Positions 1,850 to 11,531 of a stretch of DNA of 11,531 nt are shown here, piece by piece. This stretch comes from Devosia sp. (lineage in GTDB: Bacteria; Pseudomonadota; Alphaproteobacteria; Rhizobiales; Devosiaceae), in contig JAEUMC010000068.1 in the NCBI GenBank assembly GCA_016793415.1, positions 1 through 11,531 on the forward strand. Direction: 5' to 3'. A program made the position numbers and the translations under genes. Position 1 is the first letter of the stretch; each line of letters starts with the position of its first letter. The notes beneath the pieces were generated by a model. That model was not told the origin of the DNA and made no database searches. It worked only from the letters and a program-made list of their open reading frames with translations.

Positions 1850-2269
1850 TCAGCCCCGCGGTGGCAGGTTGGTCCGAGCGCGCGGCACCGTCCCTGTCAG
1901 GCCGAGCTGGTCGAGCGCACGCTCGATCTCGGCGTGGGTGTAGGGCTTCTCGAAGTACCGCGCTCCCAGCGGCAGGTCGGGCGTCTCGCCTGGCCGCGGC
2001 CGCGACACGACGATGATCTCGATGGTCGGCCAGCTGTTGCGGACGGTCTCCGCCAGCTGGGCGCCATCGATGGTGCCCGGCACGTCATATTCGATGAATG
2101 CCACGACGATCCCCGAGCGGCTTTCGAGATGCGCCACCGCTTCGTCGGAGCTGAAGGCGACCAGGGCCTCAAACCCCGCCGCCTCGAACAATTGCACTGC
2201 CCCCAGCATGATCATGGGTTCGTCCTCGACGACGAGGACCAGTGGCCGGCTGCTTCCGGTTGATATCAA
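1850..2269 (-). CDS. Single-domain response-regulator receiver with Glu at the phospho-acceptor position
   Basis: This 139-residue protein consists only of a CheY-like receiver domain with no output domain. Landmarks in order: hydrophobic beta-1 and the acidic pair in LVLVVEDEP (E15, D16), beta-3 in IVVAFIEYDVPG (54-65), a switch Ser in IEIIVVS, and the conserved Lys in YFEKPY. In typical relatives beta-3 reads xxxTDxxMPG with Asp as the phosphorylated residue; here the aligned residue is Glu60 (codon GAA). Asp62 lies two residues further on. Glu at this site often mimics the phosphorylated state, so the protein may be locked on or regulated differently; that is inference. The start is a TTG at 2269 directly preceded by an in-frame TAA; the next in-frame ATG (codon 19) would cut off beta-1, so TTG is preferred. 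No sensor kinase gene is adjacent. Confidence 0.85.
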   Translation of the reverse strand: MISTGSSRPLVLVVEDEPMIMLGAVQLFEAAGFEALVAFSSDEAVAHLESRSGIVVAFIEYDVPGTIDGAQLAETVRNSWPTIEIIVVSRPRPGETPDLPLGARYFEKPYTHAEIERALDQLGLTGTVPRARTNLPPRG

Positions 2270-3096: not shown

Positions 3097-4416
3097 GTGG
3101 CCAAAATCAGCGTCTTTGGGATCGGGTATGTCGGGGTGGTCTCCGCAGCGTGTCTGGCGGATGACGGCCACGAGGTCGTGGCGGTCGATCTCGATCCTGC
3201 CAAGGTAAGCGCCGTCAATGCCGGCCTCTCGCCGATCGTCGAGAACGGGCTCGATGAAATCATCGCCCGGGCGGTAGCTTCGGGCCGACTGCGCGCCACC
3301 ACCGATGGCCAGCAGGCGGTGCTCGATACCGACGCGAGCTTCGTCTGCGTCGGCACCCCGAGCGACGACACCGGCGCAGTGGGGCTGAAGTACGTCAGGG
3401 GCGTCTGCGCCGATATCGGCCAGGCGATCCGGCACAAGCAGAGCTTCCACTCGGTGATCATCCGCTCGACGATCGTACCGGGCACCATGGATGAGACCTG
3501 CATCCCGGTGCTCGAAGAGGCGAGCGGCATGATCGCCGGCCAGGATTTCGGGGTCGGCTACTATCCCGAGTTCCTGCGCGAAAGCACCGCGATCGCCGAC
3601 TACTACGACCCGGGCCTGATGGTCTTCGGCGCGCACGAAGCGCGCACGGCGCAGATTCTCAAGGACATCAACGCCCAGATGCCAGTGCCCTCGCACGTGG
3701 TGACGCTGAAGACCGCCGAGGCGGTGAAGTACGCGTCGAACTCCTGGCGTGCCGTCAAGGTGACCTTCGCCAACGAGATCGGCAACATTGCCAAAGCCTC
3801 GGGTGTCGACGGCCAGCAGGTGATGAAGCTGATCTGCGCCGACACCAAGGTGAACATCTCGCCCTACTTCATGAAGCCGGGCTTCGCCTTCGGCGGCTCA
3901 TGCCTGCCCAAGGATGTCCGCGCGCTGCAGCACCTTGCCGCCAAGAAGGGGGTCCCCTCCCCGCTGCTCGACTCCGTGCTCATCGCCAATGCGGCGCAGA
4001 TCGACCGGGCAGAGAAGATGGTGGCCAATTCCGGTGCCAAGACCGTCGGCCTCGTCGGCATCGCCTTCAAACCCGGCACCGACGACCTGCGCGAAAGCCC
4101 GCTGGCCGAGCTCGCCAGTCGGCTCATTTCCAAGGGCTTGGAACTCAGGGTCTATGACCCGTACGTGTCGCAGGCCGTGGCTGGCGGCGTCAGCGCCATG
4201 GGCCGCGGCAACGACGTGGTGCCGGACCTGCCGACCCGCCTGGTCGGCAAGATCGAAGACCTGATCTCGTCCTCCGACGTGATCCTGGTGGGCAATCGCT
4301 ACGAGGAAACCATCGCGCCGCTCAACGCGGTGAGCGAGTATCGCTCGCTGGTCGACCTGACGCGCATCAACGCCTCGCTCCGCTCCAACGGTACCTACGA
4401 AGGCATCTGCTGGTAA
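3097..4416 (+). CDS. algD: GDP-mannose 6-dehydrogenase AlgD
   Basis: This 439-residue cytosolic enzyme oxidises GDP-mannose to GDP-mannuronic acid with two NAD, the committed step of alginate synthesis. The N-terminal NAD fold has GIGYVG at 8-13 and an acidic residue after the second strand (VAVDLD). VCVGTPS at 83-89, the RSTIVPGT stretch at 123-130 and [10 protein letters not shown] at 157-166 are family hallmarks. The catalytic cysteine is C269 in [15 protein letters not shown], almost the same position as in Pseudomonas AlgD. The central [19 protein letters not shown], the C-terminal [17 protein letters not shown] and the terminal EGICW match AlgD more closely than UDP-glucose dehydrogenases. 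Length equals the usual 436-440. It starts at GTG 3097 behind AGAGGA and is the first gene of the operon; alg8 begins 5 nt after its stop. The assignment is firm; substrate specificity is inferred from similarity. Confidence 0.95.
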
Positions 4417-4421
4417 GCGTC

Positions 4422-5909
4422 ATGAACCTCGTTGCGCACGCCATCTACGTCCTTTCCGCTGCCGCCATCGCCAGCACCGTGCCGGCCTCCGCATTCTCGG
4501 GCGGTGCCGGGGTGTTCCTCACCCTGGGGGTGATCGGGCTCTGGCGCTACAGCTGGGCGCTGATCAATTTCGTGCGGGCGCACGTCTATATCCGGATCGC
4601 ATATCCTCGGCGGCGTGCCGCCGCCGAGGCGCTCTATGCCGCACGCCGTCCGGCACACGCCTTCTTCCTCGCCACCAGCTACAAGATCGAAGCGGCGATC
4701 ACCGCGCGTGTCTATCGCTCGATCTTCGAAGCGGCGCGCCGCTCCCCCGGTGGATCGACTGTAGTCGCCTCGGTGGTCGAGCTCGCCGACGAACGCCTGA
4801 TCCGCGCCGTCGCCGCGCAAGTACTGGCCGGAACCAACACCGTCGAAGTGGTGATCGATCGCATCGACGGCACCGGCAAGCGCGATGCGCTCGCCACGTC
4901 GCTCCGCTCGATCGCCCGCCGCTACCCCAGCGCCGACGACGTGGTGCTGCTGATCGATGGCGACACCCAGATCCCCGCGGACATCGTCGAACGCGCGGCG
5001 CCGTTCTTCGCCAACGGCAAGGTCGGGGCCCTCACTACGCACGAGCGCGCCGAGATCGACGATGCGCCGCTGTTCCGCGACTGGTTCAAGCTGCGCTTCA
5101 CCCAGCGCCAGATGATGATGTCGGCCGTGGCACTTGGCGGGCGCGTCCTCACGCTCACCGGCCGCATGTCGGTGTTTCGCGCCGACCTCGCCACCAACCC
5201 CGAATTCATCGCCTCGGTCGAGCAGGACTATATCGACCACTGGCGGCTGGGCCGGGTGAAGTTCCTCACCGGCGACGACAAATCGACCTGGTTCTGGCTG
5301 CTCAAGAACGGCTACGAGATGGCCTACCTGCCGGATGTCGCCTGCGTCTCGATGGAGACCCAGCCCAAGCCCGGCTTCGTCGAAAGCGCCATCACGCTGA
5401 TGCGCCGCTGGTTCGGCAATATGCTCAGGACCAATGGCCGCGCCCTGGCGCTATCGCCGACCAAGATCGGGCCCTTCGCCTGGTGGTCGATCCTCGACCA
5501 GCGCATCTCGATGTGGACGACGCTGACGGCGCCGGTCGGGATCGTGCTGTTCTCGGTGTTCGTCGATCCCCTGATCGCGGTGGCCTACATCGCCTGGGTG
5601 ATGGCCACCCGCTACGCCTATTGCTGGCTGCTCGCCAGCTTCGGCGGCCCATTCCCGATCACCTATCCGTTCCTGCTCTATTTCGGCCAGCTGTTCGGCG
5701 CCGCGATCAAGACCTCGGTCATGTTCCGCCTCGACCGCCAGCGCTGGACCCGCCAGTCGGCGACCAGCGTCAGCAACAGCGGCGGCTCCGAGGGGCGGGT
5801 CCGCTCCATCAGCTCCAGCTACATGCACGTGCTCGCCCTGGGCCTGCTCGTCGCCGGAGTGATTTTCGTCACGGGGCTCCTCAGCCCCTTCCCGATCCAT
5901 GCCAACTGA
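4422..5909 (+). CDS. alg8: Mannuronan synthase catalytic subunit Alg8 (GT2 family)
   Basis: This 495-residue inner-membrane glycosyltransferase polymerises mannuronic acid from GDP-mannuronate and moves the chain outward together with Alg44. Two hydrophobic segments lie near residues 1-18 and 28-50. The cytosolic GT2 domain follows, with GTGKRDAL at 150-157, the metal/nucleotide-binding DGD at 179-181 (VLLIDGDTQIP), VGALTTHE, and RVLTLTGRMSVFRA at 241-254. VEQDYIDHWRLGRVKFLTGDDKS carries the likely catalytic Asp (D269 or D272), and LMRRWFGNMLRTN at 327-338 stands in for QxxRW. Further membrane segments are at about 352-402 and 411-435, and one at 468-487. These blocks match Pseudomonas Alg8 closely. 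Pseudomonas Alg8 as I recall it ends soon after FRLDRQxWTRQ, so the Ser-rich linker (447-467) plus the last helix may be an extension. Start ATG 4422 has only a weak ribosome site and may rely on coupling to algD. Confidence 0.95.
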   Translation: MNLVAHAIYVLSAAAIASTVPASAFSGGAGVFLTLGVIGLWRYSWALINFVRAHVYIRIAYPRRRAAAEALYAARRPAHAFFLATSYKIEAAITARVYRSIFEAARRSPGGSTVVASVVELADERLIRAVAAQVLAGTNTVEVVIDRIDGTGKRDALATSLRSIARRYPSADDVVLLIDGDTQIPADIVERAAPFFANGKVGALTTHERAEIDDAPLFRDWFKLRFTQRQMMMSAVALGGRVLTLTGRMSVFRADLATNPEFIASVEQDYIDHWRLGRVKFLTGDDKSTWFWLLKNGYEMAYLPDVACVSMETQPKPGFVESAITLMRRWFGNMLRTNGRALALSPTKIGPFAWWSILDQRISMWTTLTAPVGIVLFSVFVDPLIAVAYIAWVMATRYAYCWLLASFGGPFPITYPFLLYFGQLFGAAIKTSVMFRLDRQRWTRQSATSVSNSGGSEGRVRSISSSYMHVLALGLLVAGVIFVTGLLSPFPIHAN

Positions 5910-5922
5910 GGGCTCACCAGCA

Positions 5923-7047
5923 ATGACCGAAGCGCATGCAGAACTCGACAAACCAAAAGCCAACAGAAGCCCGTCCCCTGCCCCGCTAGCGGCCGAACCG
6001 GCCGTGCACGGTGAACATCCGGTCATCCGGCTGCCGTTCAACGTCATCATCAATGGTCGCTCGTTCCAGGGCCACGCACTCAGCATCGTCGGGGCGGAAG
6101 CCACTGGGCTGATCGATCCGCAGTTGCATGGACGCGTGCAGCTGGTGACGCTGGTGTTCAACTTCCCCGGCTATGCCATCAGCCTGCCGGTGGATGCGGC
6201 GATCGGCGCCGGCGCGCCGGAAGCAGGCACCGTTACGCTGCGCTTCCTCGAGCCGACCGGCCCGCATTTGCCGCAGCTGCGCTACATCCTCAATGCCTTC
6301 GTCGGCGGCGACCTGATCGGCGTCGACGGGCTGATCCGCACCGGCGACAAGCCGGACAAGGTCAGGTCGGAACTGCCCAAGGCGCAGCGCTCGGCGTCAC
6401 ATGGCATCATGACCGGCATCCGCTGGGGCGCCTTTGCCGGCCTCGGCCTGCTGCTGGTCGGGTTCGTGGGGGTGAAGCTCTACGAGCGGCTGTTCGTGCT
6501 GTCGGTCACCGGGCTTTCCACCATCACGCTCGACGGGATGGACCTGCGCGCCATCAGCCCCGGCCAGCTCGATTTCGTCAATCCGGCGGCGACCAAGGGC
6601 GAGATCGCCTTCGCCATCCGCACCACCTCCGGTGAAGTGCTCGCCGTCTCCATGCCGTGCGATTGCGTGGTGGCGCCGGGCGCAGCCCAGGGCGGCGCTA
6701 CCGTGCTGGCCGGCGACACGGTGATGACCGTGGCACCCAAGGACGCGCCGGTGGTGATCTCGTCCAAGGTCGACGGCAATGGACTGCGGGCACTCGCTTC
6801 CGGCGCTCATGCCGAAGTGCACATGCCGAACGGCGCGGTCACCACGGCCTCGCTCGATGCCAAGCAATTGCCGGGACTGCTGCGCAGCGCCACCGACAGC
6901 GCCGCCATCCCGGTCACGCTCGTACCGGCCACCGCGCTCGACCAGAGCAGCGTCGGCTCGCCGGTCGACGTGCTGATCAAATCCGACCCGCTGGCGGTGG
7001 TGGGGCGGTTCTTCTCCTTCAACGGACCGGCGAACGAGGGCCACTAA
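5923..7047 (+). CDS. alg44: Alg44-like alginate polymerase co-factor with degenerate PilZ domain
   Basis: This 374-residue protein is the partner of Alg8; in Pseudomonas its cytosolic PilZ domain binds c-di-GMP and switches polymerisation on. A PilZ-like domain spans about 34-127, one membrane helix lies at about 169-186, and a periplasmic membrane-fusion-like region follows with SMPCDCVVAPG (243-253), which matches the SPCDC motif of Alg44. The PilZ signature is eroded: there is no RxxxR (only R37 in VIRLPF), and the DxSxxG position reads ALSIVG (52-57). Overall length is close to Pseudomonas Alg44 (about 389). An upstream in-frame ATG at 5899 overlaps alg8, but TGAGGG at 5907-5912 precedes ATG 5923 by 10 nt, so the shorter start is preferred. 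The family call is firm from position, layout and the CDC motif; c-di-GMP binding is doubtful. Confidence 0.85.
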   Translation: MTEAHAELDKPKANRSPSPAPLAAEPAVHGEHPVIRLPFNVIINGRSFQGHALSIVGAEATGLIDPQLHGRVQLVTLVFNFPGYAISLPVDAAIGAGAPEAGTVTLRFLEPTGPHLPQLRYILNAFVGGDLIGVDGLIRTGDKPDKVRSELPKAQRSASHGIMTGIRWGAFAGLGLLLVGFVGVKLYERLFVLSVTGLSTITLDGMDLRAISPGQLDFVNPAATKGEIAFAIRTTSGEVLAVSMPCDCVVAPGAAQGGATVLAGDTVMTVAPKDAPVVISSKVDGNGLRALASGAHAEVHMPNGAVTTASLDAKQLPGLLRSATDSAAIPVTLVPATALDQSSVGSPVDVLIKSDPLAVVGRFFSFNGPANEGH

Positions 7048-7048
7048 G

Positions 7049-8485
7049 ATGAACGCCATCCATCCAGTCGTGCTTTGCGGAGGCGTGGGTACGCGGCTTT
7101 GGCCGTTGTCCCGCAGCCAGCAGCCCAAACAGTTCCAGCCCATCGATCATGAGGGCTCGATCACCTTCTTTCAGACCACCGTGCAGCGGCACCGGGGTGA
7201 ACTGTTCCACGATCCGGTGGTGTCGGTCGCTGCCGGGCACCTGGGCACGGTCCGTCGCCAGCTTCGCGATGTACAGCGCAACGCGCGGATCATCGCCGAG
7301 CCGGTGGCGCGCAACACCGGACCGGCGGTGCTGTCGGCAGCGCTGCTGATCGCCCGCACCGATCCCGACGCGGTGATGCTGATCTGCCCCTCGGACCATG
7401 TGATCGAGGGCGATCTCAACTCGCGCATCCGGGAGTCGCACAAGGCAGCGGCCGACGGGCTGATCGTCACCTTCGGCATCAAGCCGCGCTACAACGAGAC
7501 CGGCTACGGCTACATCATCGATGGCGGCGAGTACTCGAACTATCGCGGCGTGCATCGCGCCGAGAAGTTCGTCGAGAAGCCGAACGCGCAGACCGCGCAG
7601 TCGCTGATCGAGACCGGCTTCGCCTACTGGGCCTCGGGCATCTCGCTGATGCGCGCCGATACGGTGATCGAAGAGTATCGCCGCTTCGACCCCGTGACCT
7701 TCGGCGCGGTCAGCGCCTCGCTGGCCAACGCCCGGCATGAAGACGGCGCCCTGCTGCTCGAGGAAGCCAGCTTCGGCTCGGCCGAAAGCCTGCCCACCGA
7801 ACGGGCGGTGTTCGAGAAATCCAAGACCGTGGCGCTGGCGCCGACCGATGTCGAATGGGACGATGTGGGCGCCTGGGCGGCGTTCCACACCATCGGCAAG
7901 AAATCGGAGGACAACAACGTCGTCAGCGGCGACGTGATGATGGTCAACTCGACGGGCAGCTACGTCCGGGGTTCCGATCGCCTGGTCGCGGTAGTCGGGG
8001 TCAACAACCTGGTGGTGGTCGATACGCATGACGCACTGCTGGTGACGACCCGCGAGCAGTCCCAGGACGTCAAGAAAGTGGTCGAGCAGCTCAAGGCGCA
8101 GAGCCGCCGCGAGGCCGAGGATCACTCGTTCGGCGCCACCGACTGGGGCAAGCAGGGCAAGCTCGCCTCCGGCGCCGGCTACATGCTGCGCCACCTCACC
8201 GTGAACCCCGGCGCAACGCTGCCGGTGGAAAGCGGCTCGGAGTTCCGTCGGCTGATGGTCGTCGCCTCTGGAGGCGGCATGCTGCACATGGGCAGCCGCC
8301 GCCGCGAGATCCGCGCCGGCGCCACCTTCGAGATCGGTCCGGAGCAGACCGCCGAGGTGATCAATGACGGCACAGGCCCGATGCAGGTCATCGAGGTCGC
8401 CTGCCATGTGGACGGTCCCCTGACGCACCTGACGCCGCTGCTGGAACTGGCAGCGGTGGCCGACGGGAGCCGCGAACATGCGTAA
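7049..8485 (+). CDS. algA: Mannose-1-phosphate guanylyltransferase AlgA with degenerate isomerase domain
   Basis: This 478-residue protein has the layout of bifunctional AlgA/ManC. The N-terminal domain makes GDP-mannose from mannose-1-phosphate and GTP: VVLCGGVGTRLWPLSR at 7-22 with PKQF following, AEPVARNTGPA at 83-93, CPSDHVI at 113-119, GYGYI, FVEKP at 174-178 and VEWDDVGAW at 268-276 are all typical. The usual WNSG reads WASG at 194-197. The C-terminal cupin (about 358-455) aligns with type II phosphomannose isomerase but lacks the metal ligands: QxHxxRxEHW is replaced by PVESGSEFRRLM at 392-403, and the later GxxH by PEQTA. The closing EDDxxRxEDxYGR motif is absent. Isomerase activity is therefore unlikely, so mannose-6-phosphate must come from another enzyme. 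It begins 1 nt after alg44 with GAGGG 8 nt upstream. Guanylyltransferase function is confident. Confidence 0.9.
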   Translation: MNAIHPVVLCGGVGTRLWPLSRSQQPKQFQPIDHEGSITFFQTTVQRHRGELFHDPVVSVAAGHLGTVRRQLRDVQRNARIIAEPVARNTGPAVLSAALLIARTDPDAVMLICPSDHVIEGDLNSRIRESHKAAADGLIVTFGIKPRYNETGYGYIIDGGEYSNYRGVHRAEKFVEKPNAQTAQSLIETGFAYWASGISLMRADTVIEEYRRFDPVTFGAVSASLANARHEDGALLLEEASFGSAESLPTERAVFEKSKTVALAPTDVEWDDVGAWAAFHTIGKKSEDNNVVSGDVMMVNSTGSYVRGSDRLVAVVGVNNLVVVDTHDALLVTTREQSQDVKKVVEQLKAQSRREAEDHSFGATDWGKQGKLASGAGYMLRHLTVNPGATLPVESGSEFRRLMVVASGGGMLHMGSRRREIRAGATFEIGPEQTAEVINDGTGPMQVIEVACHVDGPLTHLTPLLELAAVADGSREHA

Positions 8486-9998
8486 GGCGTGGGTCTGCGC
8501 AGGTCTGGTCACCGCGGCATGCTCTCTCCCTTGGGCCGCCACGGGAGCCGACTACGCGCGGACCCTCGCCTATGAAAAGACCGTCGCTGCCCTCGCGGCG
8601 ATGGTCGAGGCCGGCCGTCCGGCCACCGACCTCCAGTCGGCGGCCGCGCCTCTCGGCTTCAGCTATGCTGCAGCCGAACCCAGGCCCTTGAAGGCGCCGG
8701 AACTCGGTGATGCCCAGGTCAGTGTCGTGTCGATCGACCTGGTCCTGAGCCAGTTGGCGCTGCAAGCCGGCGCCAACTACCACGTGGCGTTGCGCCAGGC
8801 GCAGGCAAGGCCCGAAGTGCTGCTGGTCGAAGCGGGCGTCGCCAGCCTGGCGCAGCTCTATGAAGCGGTGACCGCCGCCAAGCTCAGCGGCGTGCTCGAC
8901 AAGACCGATGCCGGCTATGTCGCGCATCTCCCCATTGCGGTGTGGAACGGCGCCACCCTGGCGCTGCAGCCGGGCGAGACGCTGCTGCTCGATCGCTCCA
9001 GCGGCGCTTTCCTCCTCGCCTCGGGCAACCTCGTCGGCGATGGCGCCACGATTGCCGGGGCGGGCGAACCGAACGCGCGGCTCAAAGATTTCAACCCGTT
9101 CGTGGTCGTAGCGCTCTCGGGCAGCGCCAGCCTGGAGCGGATGCACTTTGCCGATCTCGGCTACGGGCTGTTTCCACCACTCACCGGCGTCACCATTCTC
9201 GAGGGTGGCTTTTACGCCAAGCCCTCGCCCTCGGTGATCCGCGACAGCCGCTTCGACCATGTCGGCTCGCTGGCGCTGGTCGATGCCGATGAGGCGATCG
9301 TCGACGGCAACGTGTTCGGCGCCTCGAGCGGCCCGGCCCTGCTGCCCAGCGGCGGCAAGGATATTTTCGCGCGGGGCAACGTCGTGCTGGCCGGGACCGG
9401 TGCGCATGGCATCAAGGTCACCGGCGGTGCAAACACCGTCGAGCTCACGGGCAACATCGTCATCGACGCCGGGCTCAATGGTATCTTTGCCGATGGCGGC
9501 GCTGCCAACCTCAGGATCGAGGATAACCTCATCGCCGGCAGCAAACGCTCCGGCGTGTCGGTTGCCTCGGCCGACTGCATCGACGTCGCCGGGAACCTCC
9601 TGCTGCAGAACGCCCAGTCGGGGCTCGCCGTGCGCGACAGCGCCGGCCTCAAGGTCAGCGCCAACCGACTGATCGACAACGGCAATGCCGGGATCAGCGT
9701 GACGCATCAGCCCGATTACGGGGTGATCGAGATCGCCTCGAACGAACTCGACGGCAACCGGGTCGGCATCAAGGGCTCGACCACCGCAAGGCTGCAGTTC
9801 GCCATGAACGATTTCACCGGCCAGGCGCCGCGGCTGCTCGACGGCGAGTTGGTGCAGTTCACCGATCGCTTCTTCAACCTCAGCGCCACCGACGGCACGC
9901 CGACGATCATCGACGGCCTGCAGCTCAAATCCGGCGCCAAGCTCACACCCACCGGCGCCCTGCGCCCCACTAGCTGTACCTTCGAGGGGGATGCCTGA
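8478..9998 (+). CDS. algG: AlgG-like periplasmic beta-helix protein lacking the DPHD epimerase motif
   Basis: This 506-residue exported protein has the position and fold of mannuronan C5-epimerase AlgG, which turns some mannuronate to guluronate in the growing polymer and also helps guide it through the periplasm. Residues 1-24 are a signal peptide ending TGA. An N-terminal region (about 25-165) is followed by right-handed beta-helix repeats from about 165 to 470, with regular N-x-hydrophobic turns such as DGNVF, RGNVVLAGTGAHGIKV, TGNIVIDAGLNGIF and VAGNLLLQNAQSGLAV, which match AlgG repeats. Where AlgG carries the catalytic DPHD, this protein reads LPSG (289-292), just before KDIFARGNVV. Epimerase activity is therefore doubtful and a structural or guiding role is possible. 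The ATG at 8478 overlaps algA by 8 nt, with GGGAG 9 nt upstream. The family assignment is fairly firm; the activity is not. Confidence 0.8.
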   Translation: MRKAWVCAGLVTAACSLPWAATGADYARTLAYEKTVAALAAMVEAGRPATDLQSAAAPLGFSYAAAEPRPLKAPELGDAQVSVVSIDLVLSQLALQAGANYHVALRQAQARPEVLLVEAGVASLAQLYEAVTAAKLSGVLDKTDAGYVAHLPIAVWNGATLALQPGETLLLDRSSGAFLLASGNLVGDGATIAGAGEPNARLKDFNPFVVVALSGSASLERMHFADLGYGLFPPLTGVTILEGGFYAKPSPSVIRDSRFDHVGSLALVDADEAIVDGNVFGASSGPALLPSGGKDIFARGNVVLAGTGAHGIKVTGGANTVELTGNIVIDAGLNGIFADGGAANLRIEDNLIAGSKRSGVSVASADCIDVAGNLLLQNAQSGLAVRDSAGLKVSANRLIDNGNAGISVTHQPDYGVIEIASNELDGNRVGIKGSTTARLQFAMNDFTGQAPRLLDGELVQFTDRFFNLSATDGTPTIIDGLQLKSGAKLTPTGALRPTSCTFEGDA

Positions 9999-11428
9999 TG
10001 GTCTTTTCGTCCGAGACGTTCCTGTTCCTGTTCCTGCCGATTTTCCTCGCGGCGTATTACCTGACGCCGCCGAAGTGGCGGAACCTCACACTGCTGATCG
10101 AGTCGTACCTGTTCTACGGCTGGTGGCGCTTCGACTTCCTGATGCTGCTCTGCGCGAACACGCTGTGGGCCTATGTGTTCTCGATCCTCGTCGAAAAGTA
10201 CTATGGCACCCCCAAGGCCAAGCTGTTCGTCGCCATCGGCGTCACCGGGCACCTGCTGGTCCTCGGGGTGTTCAAGTATCTCAACTTCTTCATCGACAGC
10301 TTCGCCTCGTTATGGGGCACGACGCCCGACGCGCTCGGCATCCACTGGCAGTTGCTGCTGCCGATCGGTATCTCGTTCTACGTCTTCCACTCGATCAGCT
10401 ACCTGGTCGACGTCTATCGCGGCGACGCCAAGGTGTCGCGCAACATCATCGATTTTGCCGCCTTCCTCGCGCTGTTCCCGCAGCTCGTGGCCGGCCCGAT
10501 CCTCCGCTACAAGGATCTGGCGCCGCAGTTCGAGCATCGCGAACACAGCTGGGAGCTGTTCAACGCCGGCTGGCAGCGCTTCCTGATCGGCCTTTCGATG
10601 AAGGTGCTGATCGCCGACCCGGTGGCGCCGCTGGCCGACGCCATGTTCTCGGCCCCCAACCCCACCGTGGTCGAATCCTGGCTGGGCGCACTGGCCTACT
10701 CGATGCAGCTCTATTTCGACTTTGCCGGCTATTCGGCGATGGCGATCGGGCTGGCGCTGATGATCGGCTTCCGTTTCGCCGAGAACTTCAACATGCCCTA
10801 TATCAGCCGCTCGATCACCGAGTTCTGGCGGCGCTGGCATATCTCACTCAGCACGTGGCTCCGCACCTACCTCTACATCTCGCTGGGCGGCAACCGTAAG
10901 GGCACGGTTCGCACTTACATCAATCTGTTCCTGGTGATGCTGCTGGGCGGGCTTTGGCACGGCGCCGCCTTCACCTTCATCCTGTGGGGCGTCTGGCACG
11001 GCGGCATCCTCGTCGTCGAGCGGCTCACCGGCTACGACAAGACGGCGCAGAACTACTGGTGGAGCCTGCCGCTCTGCTTCGTCGCCGTCGTGCTCGGCTG
11101 GGTGATGTTCCGCGCTCCCGATGTCGGCCAGGCCTTCCAGATGTATGCCGGCATGTTCGGCTTCAACGGTATCGGCATCCGGCCGGAGGTGGCCTGGATG
11201 GTGAGCCGCGAGGCAATGACCATGCTCGCCATCGCGATCGCCATCACCATCGCCGAGCCGCGCATGCGCCACCTGTGGGAGCCGCAGATCACCGTCAATG
11301 CCGACGGTACGGCGACCGCAGCCGCCACCAGTCTGGTCAAGGCCGGAGCCCTCAGCGCGCTCGCCATCTTCTGCCTGATGCGGCTCGCCGAGCAGACCTA
11401 CTCGCCCTTCCTCTACTTCCAGTTCTGA
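9998..11428 (+). CDS. algI: Alginate O-acetyltransferase AlgI (MBOAT family)
   Basis: This 476-residue multi-pass inner-membrane protein belongs to the MBOAT family and passes acetyl groups across the membrane for O-acetylation of mannuronate, working with AlgJ/AlgX-type proteins. It starts MVFSSETFLFLFLP, the typical AlgI N-terminus, then FKYLNFF (92-98), LLPIGISFYVFHSISYLVDVYRG (120-142), AGPILRYKDLAPQF (165-178), YFDFAGYSAMAIG (239-251), FWRRWHISLSTWLRTYLYI (276-294) and LLGGLWHGAAFTFILWG (315-331). The two MBOAT histidines are H281 and H321, the latter in GLWHGA as in Pseudomonas AlgI. About ten or more membrane helices are apparent. Length fits the family (460-520). ATG 9998 shares its A with the algG stop (TGATG), with GAGGGGG 7 nt upstream, so translation is coupled. 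Acetylation of this operon's polymer is the likely role. Confidence 0.95.
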   Translation: MVFSSETFLFLFLPIFLAAYYLTPPKWRNLTLLIESYLFYGWWRFDFLMLLCANTLWAYVFSILVEKYYGTPKAKLFVAIGVTGHLLVLGVFKYLNFFIDSFASLWGTTPDALGIHWQLLLPIGISFYVFHSISYLVDVYRGDAKVSRNIIDFAAFLALFPQLVAGPILRYKDLAPQFEHREHSWELFNAGWQRFLIGLSMKVLIADPVAPLADAMFSAPNPTVVESWLGALAYSMQLYFDFAGYSAMAIGLALMIGFRFAENFNMPYISRSITEFWRRWHISLSTWLRTYLYISLGGNRKGTVRTYINLFLVMLLGGLWHGAAFTFILWGVWHGGILVVERLTGYDKTAQNYWWSLPLCFVAVVLGWVMFRAPDVGQAFQMYAGMFGFNGIGIRPEVAWMVSREAMTMLAIAIAITIAEPRMRHLWEPQITVNADGTATAAATSLVKAGALSALAIFCLMRLAEQTYSPFLYFQF

Positions 11429-11436
11429 GGCCGGAA

Positions 11437-11531
11437 ATGACACTCGACTCCAACGTCAGCGCCAAATCCTCCTGGGTCGCAGCCGCGCCCGCCTTCGCCC
11501 TGCCGGTGCTGTTCCTCGGCTATGCGGTTGT
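11437..11531 (+). CDS. Start of a membrane-anchored protein, probably an AlgJ/AlgX-type acetylation partner (truncated by window)
   Basis: Only the first 31 residues are visible: a polar start (MTLDSNVSAKSS) then a hydrophobic stretch (WVAAAPAFALPVLFLGYAV) that looks like an uncleaved signal anchor or the start of a membrane helix. It begins 8 nt after the algI stop with GAGG 6 nt before the ATG, so it belongs to the same operon. In other AlgI operons the next gene often encodes AlgJ or AlgX, SGNH-fold acetyltransferases anchored in or exported across the membrane; that identity is inferred from position only. Confidence 0.55.
   Translation, partial: MTLDSNVSAKSSWVAAAPAFALPVLFLGYAV

Follow-up and report, generated by a model that had tools for sequence, protein, structure and literature searches.

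The canonical alginate operon of Pseudomonas and Azotobacter has the order algD-alg8-alg44-algKEGXLIJF-algA. The "atypical" alginate operons of Bundalovic-Torma et al. 2020, in which algKE or modification genes are rearranged or missing, were described as gene losses (PMC7112194); in the portion of that text compared here, neither site losses in retained Alg44, AlgA and AlgG nor an alphaproteobacterial family is mentioned. In P. aeruginosa Alg44, R21 and residue 44 have been reported as essential (PMC8461298), and laboratory algG mutants are reported to secrete mannuronan (PMC4444821).

The window analysed here is an 11,531-nt stretch of Devosia sp. GCA_016793415.1 (contig JAEUMC010000068.1, C424; assembly 82.5% complete). 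It carries algD-alg8-alg44-algA-algG-algI as a single tight run on the + strand (3097-11428), with six open frames whose neighbours overlap or stand 1-5 bp apart, and the contig stops within the next gene. AlgD (3097..4416) is a GDP-mannose 6-dehydrogenase by PDB search, with 1mfz as best match at 440 bits versus 250 bits for the best UDP-glucose dehydrogenase. The GT2 polymerase Alg8 (4422..5909) adjoins a PilZ-fold Alg44 co-polymerase (5899..7047), as in canonical alginate operons; the latter consists of a PilZ-fold N-domain, a predicted TM helix and an HlyD-like periplasmic part. These are followed by an AlgA-like mannose-1-phosphate guanylyltransferase with a degenerate isomerase cupin (7049..8485), an AlgG-like periplasmic right-handed beta-helix protein (8478..9998) and the MBOAT acetyltransferase AlgI (9998..11428; PF03062, 116 bits). 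The interrupted gene (11437..11531, + strand) is likely the start of an AlgJ/AlgX-type SGNH acetyltransferase, which is complete in the related locus L050 (PF16822, 229 bits). A preliminary description of this DNA held that Alg44, AlgA and AlgG each lack key residues while retaining their frames and folds, and motif columns, profiles and structure models agree with it on this point. The window represents a distinct, conserved family of alginate-type loci, which is probably a system for acetylated polymannuronate that works independently of c-di-GMP.

Like the canonical operon, window-type operons hold homologs of AlgD, Alg8, Alg44, AlgG, AlgX, AlgL, AlgI, AlgJ, AlgF and AlgA in one run and retain the PilZ and beta-helix folds. 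Unlike it, they have a different gene order with algA inside the operon as a guanylyltransferase, lack the c-di-GMP residues, the DPHD motif and a detected AlgE, and carry two Sel1 proteins, one of them of ~910 aa. Rearranged or missing genes are common to window-type operons and the atypical operons, as far as the latter are described in the compared part of PMC7112194. No description of the window-type family was found in the open-licence full-text literature searched.

Thirty-two loci were obtained from an Alg8 scan of named genomes queried with peptides of the window's own Alg8, and their hosts are Devosia, Rhizobiaceae, Rhodobacteraceae-type bacteria (Paracoccaceae, Roseobacteraceae) and Martelella. 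The six-gene order of the window is found in 27 of them; contig ends truncate two, and AlgI was not detected in three. L044, whose frames are split, and L038, which is half a locus, were dropped from the Alg44, AlgA and AlgG family sets, L039, L042 and L045 were dropped as well from the Alg8 set, and the AlgI set leaves out L018, where the frame is shortened, and L041 and L049, where no AlgI was found. In L044, an operon of window type, the alg8 and algA frames are split, through either decay or sequencing error. All 31 complete window-type sets (30 of the 32 loci plus the window) are without a full motif in Alg44, AlgA or AlgG, and the 32-row column counts given below comprise these 31 sets plus a further window-type locus, L130. 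In a less biased sample, a strong Alg8 match occurred in 24 of 398 phylum genomes and 23 of 385 class genomes, the window's own genome being in both; L130 was the one window-type locus among the 40 read from these genomes, with the strong Alg8 places of G654, G700, G222, G384 and the second place of G298 left out. No window-type relative showing just one or two of the three losses appeared among the 32 rows, and such intermediates may be missed because the 32 loci were found via the window's own Alg8 peptides.

In the AlgG of the window, the DPHDRS epimerase motif has become L289-P-S-G-G293 (9342..9356) with one residue deleted, and the equivalents of Y314, D317, H319, R321 and R345 are all gone. 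Across the 32 window-type rows the canonical letter is found in no row at Y314, D317 or R321 and in a single row each at H319 and R345, where it sits within otherwise lost motifs. DPHD is absent from all 31 complete window-type AlgG proteins and from L130; the motif is retained in 10/10 canonical AlgG rows. Against the mannuronan C5-epimerase model NF038177 the window AlgG scores 46 bits, below the curated cut-off of 700, and its structure model matches AlgG 4nk6 with a target TM of 0.76. This protein would be a conduit or scaffold in the periplasm with no epimerase activity, and the chain would therefore stay polymannuronate. A backup AlgG of canonical type (NF038177) was found in none of 29 window-type genomes (26 distinct) except that of Rhizobium tibeticum (G806, L241), where a second, 285-bit AlgG with DPHD accompanies the window-type operon. 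The AlgG profile run over 385 class genomes returned mostly unrelated beta-helix proteins. Two further loci of the same genus, L015 (G008) and L017 (G010), encode other distant AlgG-like proteins.

The motif QxHxHRxExW is characteristic of type II isomerases. In the AlgA of the window, the nucleotidyltransferase domain scores 141 bits and MannoseP_isomer 27 bits, barely above the cut-off of 23.6; GGxGxRLWPxSR and FxEKP are present, and QxHxHRxExW is gone from the degenerate cupin domain (8102..8401). The guanylyltransferase motifs are retained in 31/31 window-type AlgA proteins and the isomerase motif in 0/31, with Gln, Glu and Trp of the motif each in 0/32 rows and both His of HxH in no row. 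QxHxHRxExW is intact in other AlgA copies, and these document the intact motif, the AlgA of pseudomonad loci lying beyond the stretches compared. A second AlgA match above 160 bits with QxHxHRxExW is present in 24 of the 26 distinct window-type genomes, including the window's own; no second AlgA with PF01050 was found in G731 and G808, and the type I isomerase PF20511 gave nothing above cut-off in nine genomes. The operon AlgA would provide the guanylyltransferase step only, the isomerase step coming from the intact AlgA elsewhere.

That step can be supplied from elsewhere in most genomes, and relatives have up to twelve genes, so the description of the system as "stripped-down" is not entirely apt. 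Downstream of the window's equivalent in L050, a one-contig Devosia genome, are AlgJ-like and AlgX-like SGNH proteins, a short Sel1-type protein, AlgF, a 909-aa Sel1 protein and a PL5 AlgL-like protein. The best explanation is that the window holds the leading half of an operon with as many as twelve genes, algD-alg8-alg44-algA-algG-algI-algJ-short Sel1-algX-algF-long Sel1-algL. Of the acetylation genes, AlgI is in the window; AlgJ, AlgX and AlgF, whose place is beyond the contig end, were observed in relatives only. The DxHW and GTSxS motifs are retained in 27/27 AlgJ proteins and, by pattern, both are found in 25 of 29 AlgX proteins (L031 has GTSMS). In L041, L044, L049 and L130, algI, algJ and algF were not detected and AlgX is present without intact DxHW/GTSxS motifs. 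L041 and L130 are sisters within the clade in the Alg8 tree and L049 stands at the clade's open base, so the alteration of AlgX needs at least two changes. Altered AlgX in loci where algI, algJ and algF were not detected supports, as a parallel case within the family, the idea that proteins stay as scaffold once their chemistry goes.

The long Sel1 gene and algL stand one after the other as the last two genes of the conserved run in all 18 stretches compared. Downstream of AlgL no gene family holds a fixed place in these 18 stretches, and general ABC-transporter ATPases, in no constant position, occur in ten of them. An exporter role for the 909-aa protein was weighed and rejected, its sequence being that of a Sel1/TPR repeat protein. 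The AlgE exporter (PF13372) was found in 0/9 and 0/20 window-type genomes (26 distinct), of which the window's own is just 82.5% complete. AlgE is present in six of eight other Alg8-bearing genomes and was not detected in G533, which carries the canonical-type locus L131, so its absence is not special to the window-type family.

In the polysaccharide lyase Smlt1473, Y222 is given the roles of base and acid towards mannuronate, and H168 that of a possible base for guluronate-type residues; the H168A variant served as an inactive mutant (PMC8511899). All 18 AlgL proteins examined (L223-L240) retain equivalents of N167, R215 and Y222; at the position of H168, 15 have Leu, and those of the two Agrobacterium loci and the Ciceribacter locus have His. 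Since H168A inactivates Smlt1473, the Leu in these 15 proteins makes the lyase activity and substrate of AlgL doubtful. The pattern fits a chain without guluronate or an inactive lyase, and does not decide between them. The AlgL of L050 has as its best NCBIfam match a general polysaccharide lyase model (156 bits, below cut-off) and not the mannuronate-specific models.

Taken as a pathway, AlgD would make GDP-mannuronate, Alg8 and Alg44 would polymerise it, and AlgI, AlgJ, AlgX and AlgF would acetylate the chain. Judging from sequence, bacteria with window-type loci may naturally make unepimerised acetylated polymannuronate under different control; the mannuronan reported in the consulted part of PMC4444821 comes from laboratory mutants, and polymannuronate is the predicted product of this family. 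We tentatively extend this to a fuller picture, which has somewhat less than an even chance of being right, in which an alphaproteobacterial clade makes a natural guluronate-free acetylated mannuronan with an alginate machine released from c-di-GMP, whose modification enzymes are a dead scaffold guiding the chain across the periplasm to a non-AlgE exporter.

It is also conceivable, though unlikely, that the family produces some other uronic acid polymer to which the AlgG, Alg44 and AlgL sites have been altered accordingly, AlgG or the Alg44 N-domain possibly having new ligands. Functional sites are altered in four proteins (Alg44, AlgA and AlgG in 32/32 rows, the AlgL His in 15/18), the Alg44 N-domain has a conserved signature of its own, and the general lyase match of the L050 AlgL points the same way. 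Set against this are the GDP-mannose 6-dehydrogenase type of AlgD, the guanylyltransferase within the operon, the grouping of Alg8 with alginate-type synthases and the presence of AlgI, AlgJ, AlgX and AlgF in most members.

The PilZ-fold domain of the window Alg44 (residues 36-138; 6004..6312) lacks the c-di-GMP residues. In the column alignment, canonical R17, R21 and D44 correspond to G38, V42 and A60, and S46 is retained; by column count, the canonical letter is found in 0/32 window-type rows at each of R17, R21 and D44 and in 32/32 at S46. The c-di-GMP motifs RxxxR and DxSxxG are retained in 10/10 canonical Alg44 rows, and the Pfam PilZ model has no match in any of the 29 window-type family Alg44 proteins scanned. 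A PDB search by Alg44 sequence alone gave chance matches only, and the assignment of the PilZ fold came from the structure model, in which the N-domain is closest to Alg44 PilZ structures. The domain's own invariant residues include H40, P41 and S62 (29 rows), and its fold could bind another ligand.

We take the His of the EHPP stretch in Alg8 to be P. aeruginosa H323. It is present in 9/9 pseudomonad-like rows and 0/29 window-type rows; its loss is weak evidence because it is also found in just 5/30 other rows. H323 has been reported to contribute to activation by c-di-GMP (PMC8461298). The Alg44 PilZ-fold domain would serve as a structural part of the polymerase with no c-di-GMP binding; if Alg44 no longer binds this signal, the polymerase would be ungated by it and control would have moved to transcription. 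Continued sensing of c-di-GMP or another nucleotide via residues outside the canonical motif, with post-translational control kept, would account for the retained PilZ fold and the S46 found in every row; it is improbable given that the equivalents of R17, R21 and D44 are gone in all 32 rows, including both residues reported as essential in P. aeruginosa.

A different mode of control, as the preliminary description supposed, is suggested by the regulators upstream of the operon. In 19 of the 32 loci a regulator homologous to a LuxR-type protein lies on the same strand ~160-580 bp upstream of algD; both of the two such regulators scanned have a LuxR-type DNA-binding domain, and one has a receiver match just below the Pfam cut-off. 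Eight Devosia-type loci, the window among them, have a divergent single-domain receiver instead, which in the window is a response-regulator receiver at 1850..2269 on the - strand (PF00072, 37.7 bits). By its position, this gene may be tied to the operon. Neither regulator was found in the upstream sequence examined for L034, L037, L041, L044 and L049.

A 68-row Alg8 tree separates the 29 window-type rows from all others by a branch whose SH-aLRT support is 100. Closest to this clade among the remaining rows is L131 (SH-aLRT 84, not starred), which comes from a genome of the same taxonomic order, has a long Sel1 protein and an undetected AlgE like window-type loci, and differs from them in retaining the RxxxR and DxSxxG motifs of Alg44 and the DPHDRS of AlgG. 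Both PilZ and DPHD motifs are present throughout L131-L137, L141-L143 and L154. Counted on rows with clear motifs only, the loss of DPHD needs one change and that of the PilZ motif three, two of them being L147 and L158; L150, L151 and L168 (PilZ) and L147 and L155 (AlgG) were not coded, and the counts would rise if they were scored as losses. The tree comes from a quick search, and some of its outer rows are long-branched.

That the three losses arose independently and at random, and are not one family trait, is very improbable. Motifs are also missing outside the clade, namely the PilZ motif in the Alg8-Alg44 pairs of L147 and L158 and, by pattern, in the weak Alg44 matches of L150, L151 and L168 (25-27 bits), and DPHD in a 143-bit beta-helix protein of L155 whose PilZ motif is intact; against this, all window-type rows share the three losses and belong to one clade, with a single coded change for DPHD and three for PilZ. 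The co-occurrence of the losses in one clade, raised in the preliminary description, is thus borne out in the Alg8 tree, and its suggestion of a distinct family of alginate-like loci gains support from this one well supported clade.

Purifying selection, also suggested there, appears to act on all six genes, as NG86 pairwise dN/dS values between the window and four close Devosia loci (L018, L019, L020 and L022) are 0.02-0.20. Within the altered domains, residues 1-140 of Alg44 give 0.07-0.19 and the degenerate AlgA cupin (residues 353-478) gives 0.02-0.06 against the same four. Against the more distant L021, whole-gene values are 0.17-0.39, with high dS. Ordinary decay of the operon into a pseudogene cluster, which the split frames of L044 and the patchy presence of full-length AlgG homologs in the genus (seven of 18 other genomes) might suggest and which had already been thought unlikely, is largely contradicted and extremely improbable, because frames are open, dN/dS is low even in altered domains and the same losses are conserved across a deep clade.

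The family supplies named candidate genera, among them Devosia, Tabrizicola and Roseivivax, and offers a polymerase that may run without c-di-GMP. Its natural Alg44, AlgG and AlgX proteins without active sites could tell scaffold from catalytic roles. Upstream of the operon, the window also encodes a protein with a weak nuclease-like (SNase) domain match (525-1802) and a solute-binding protein (SBP_bac_3) cut by the contig end (2-565).
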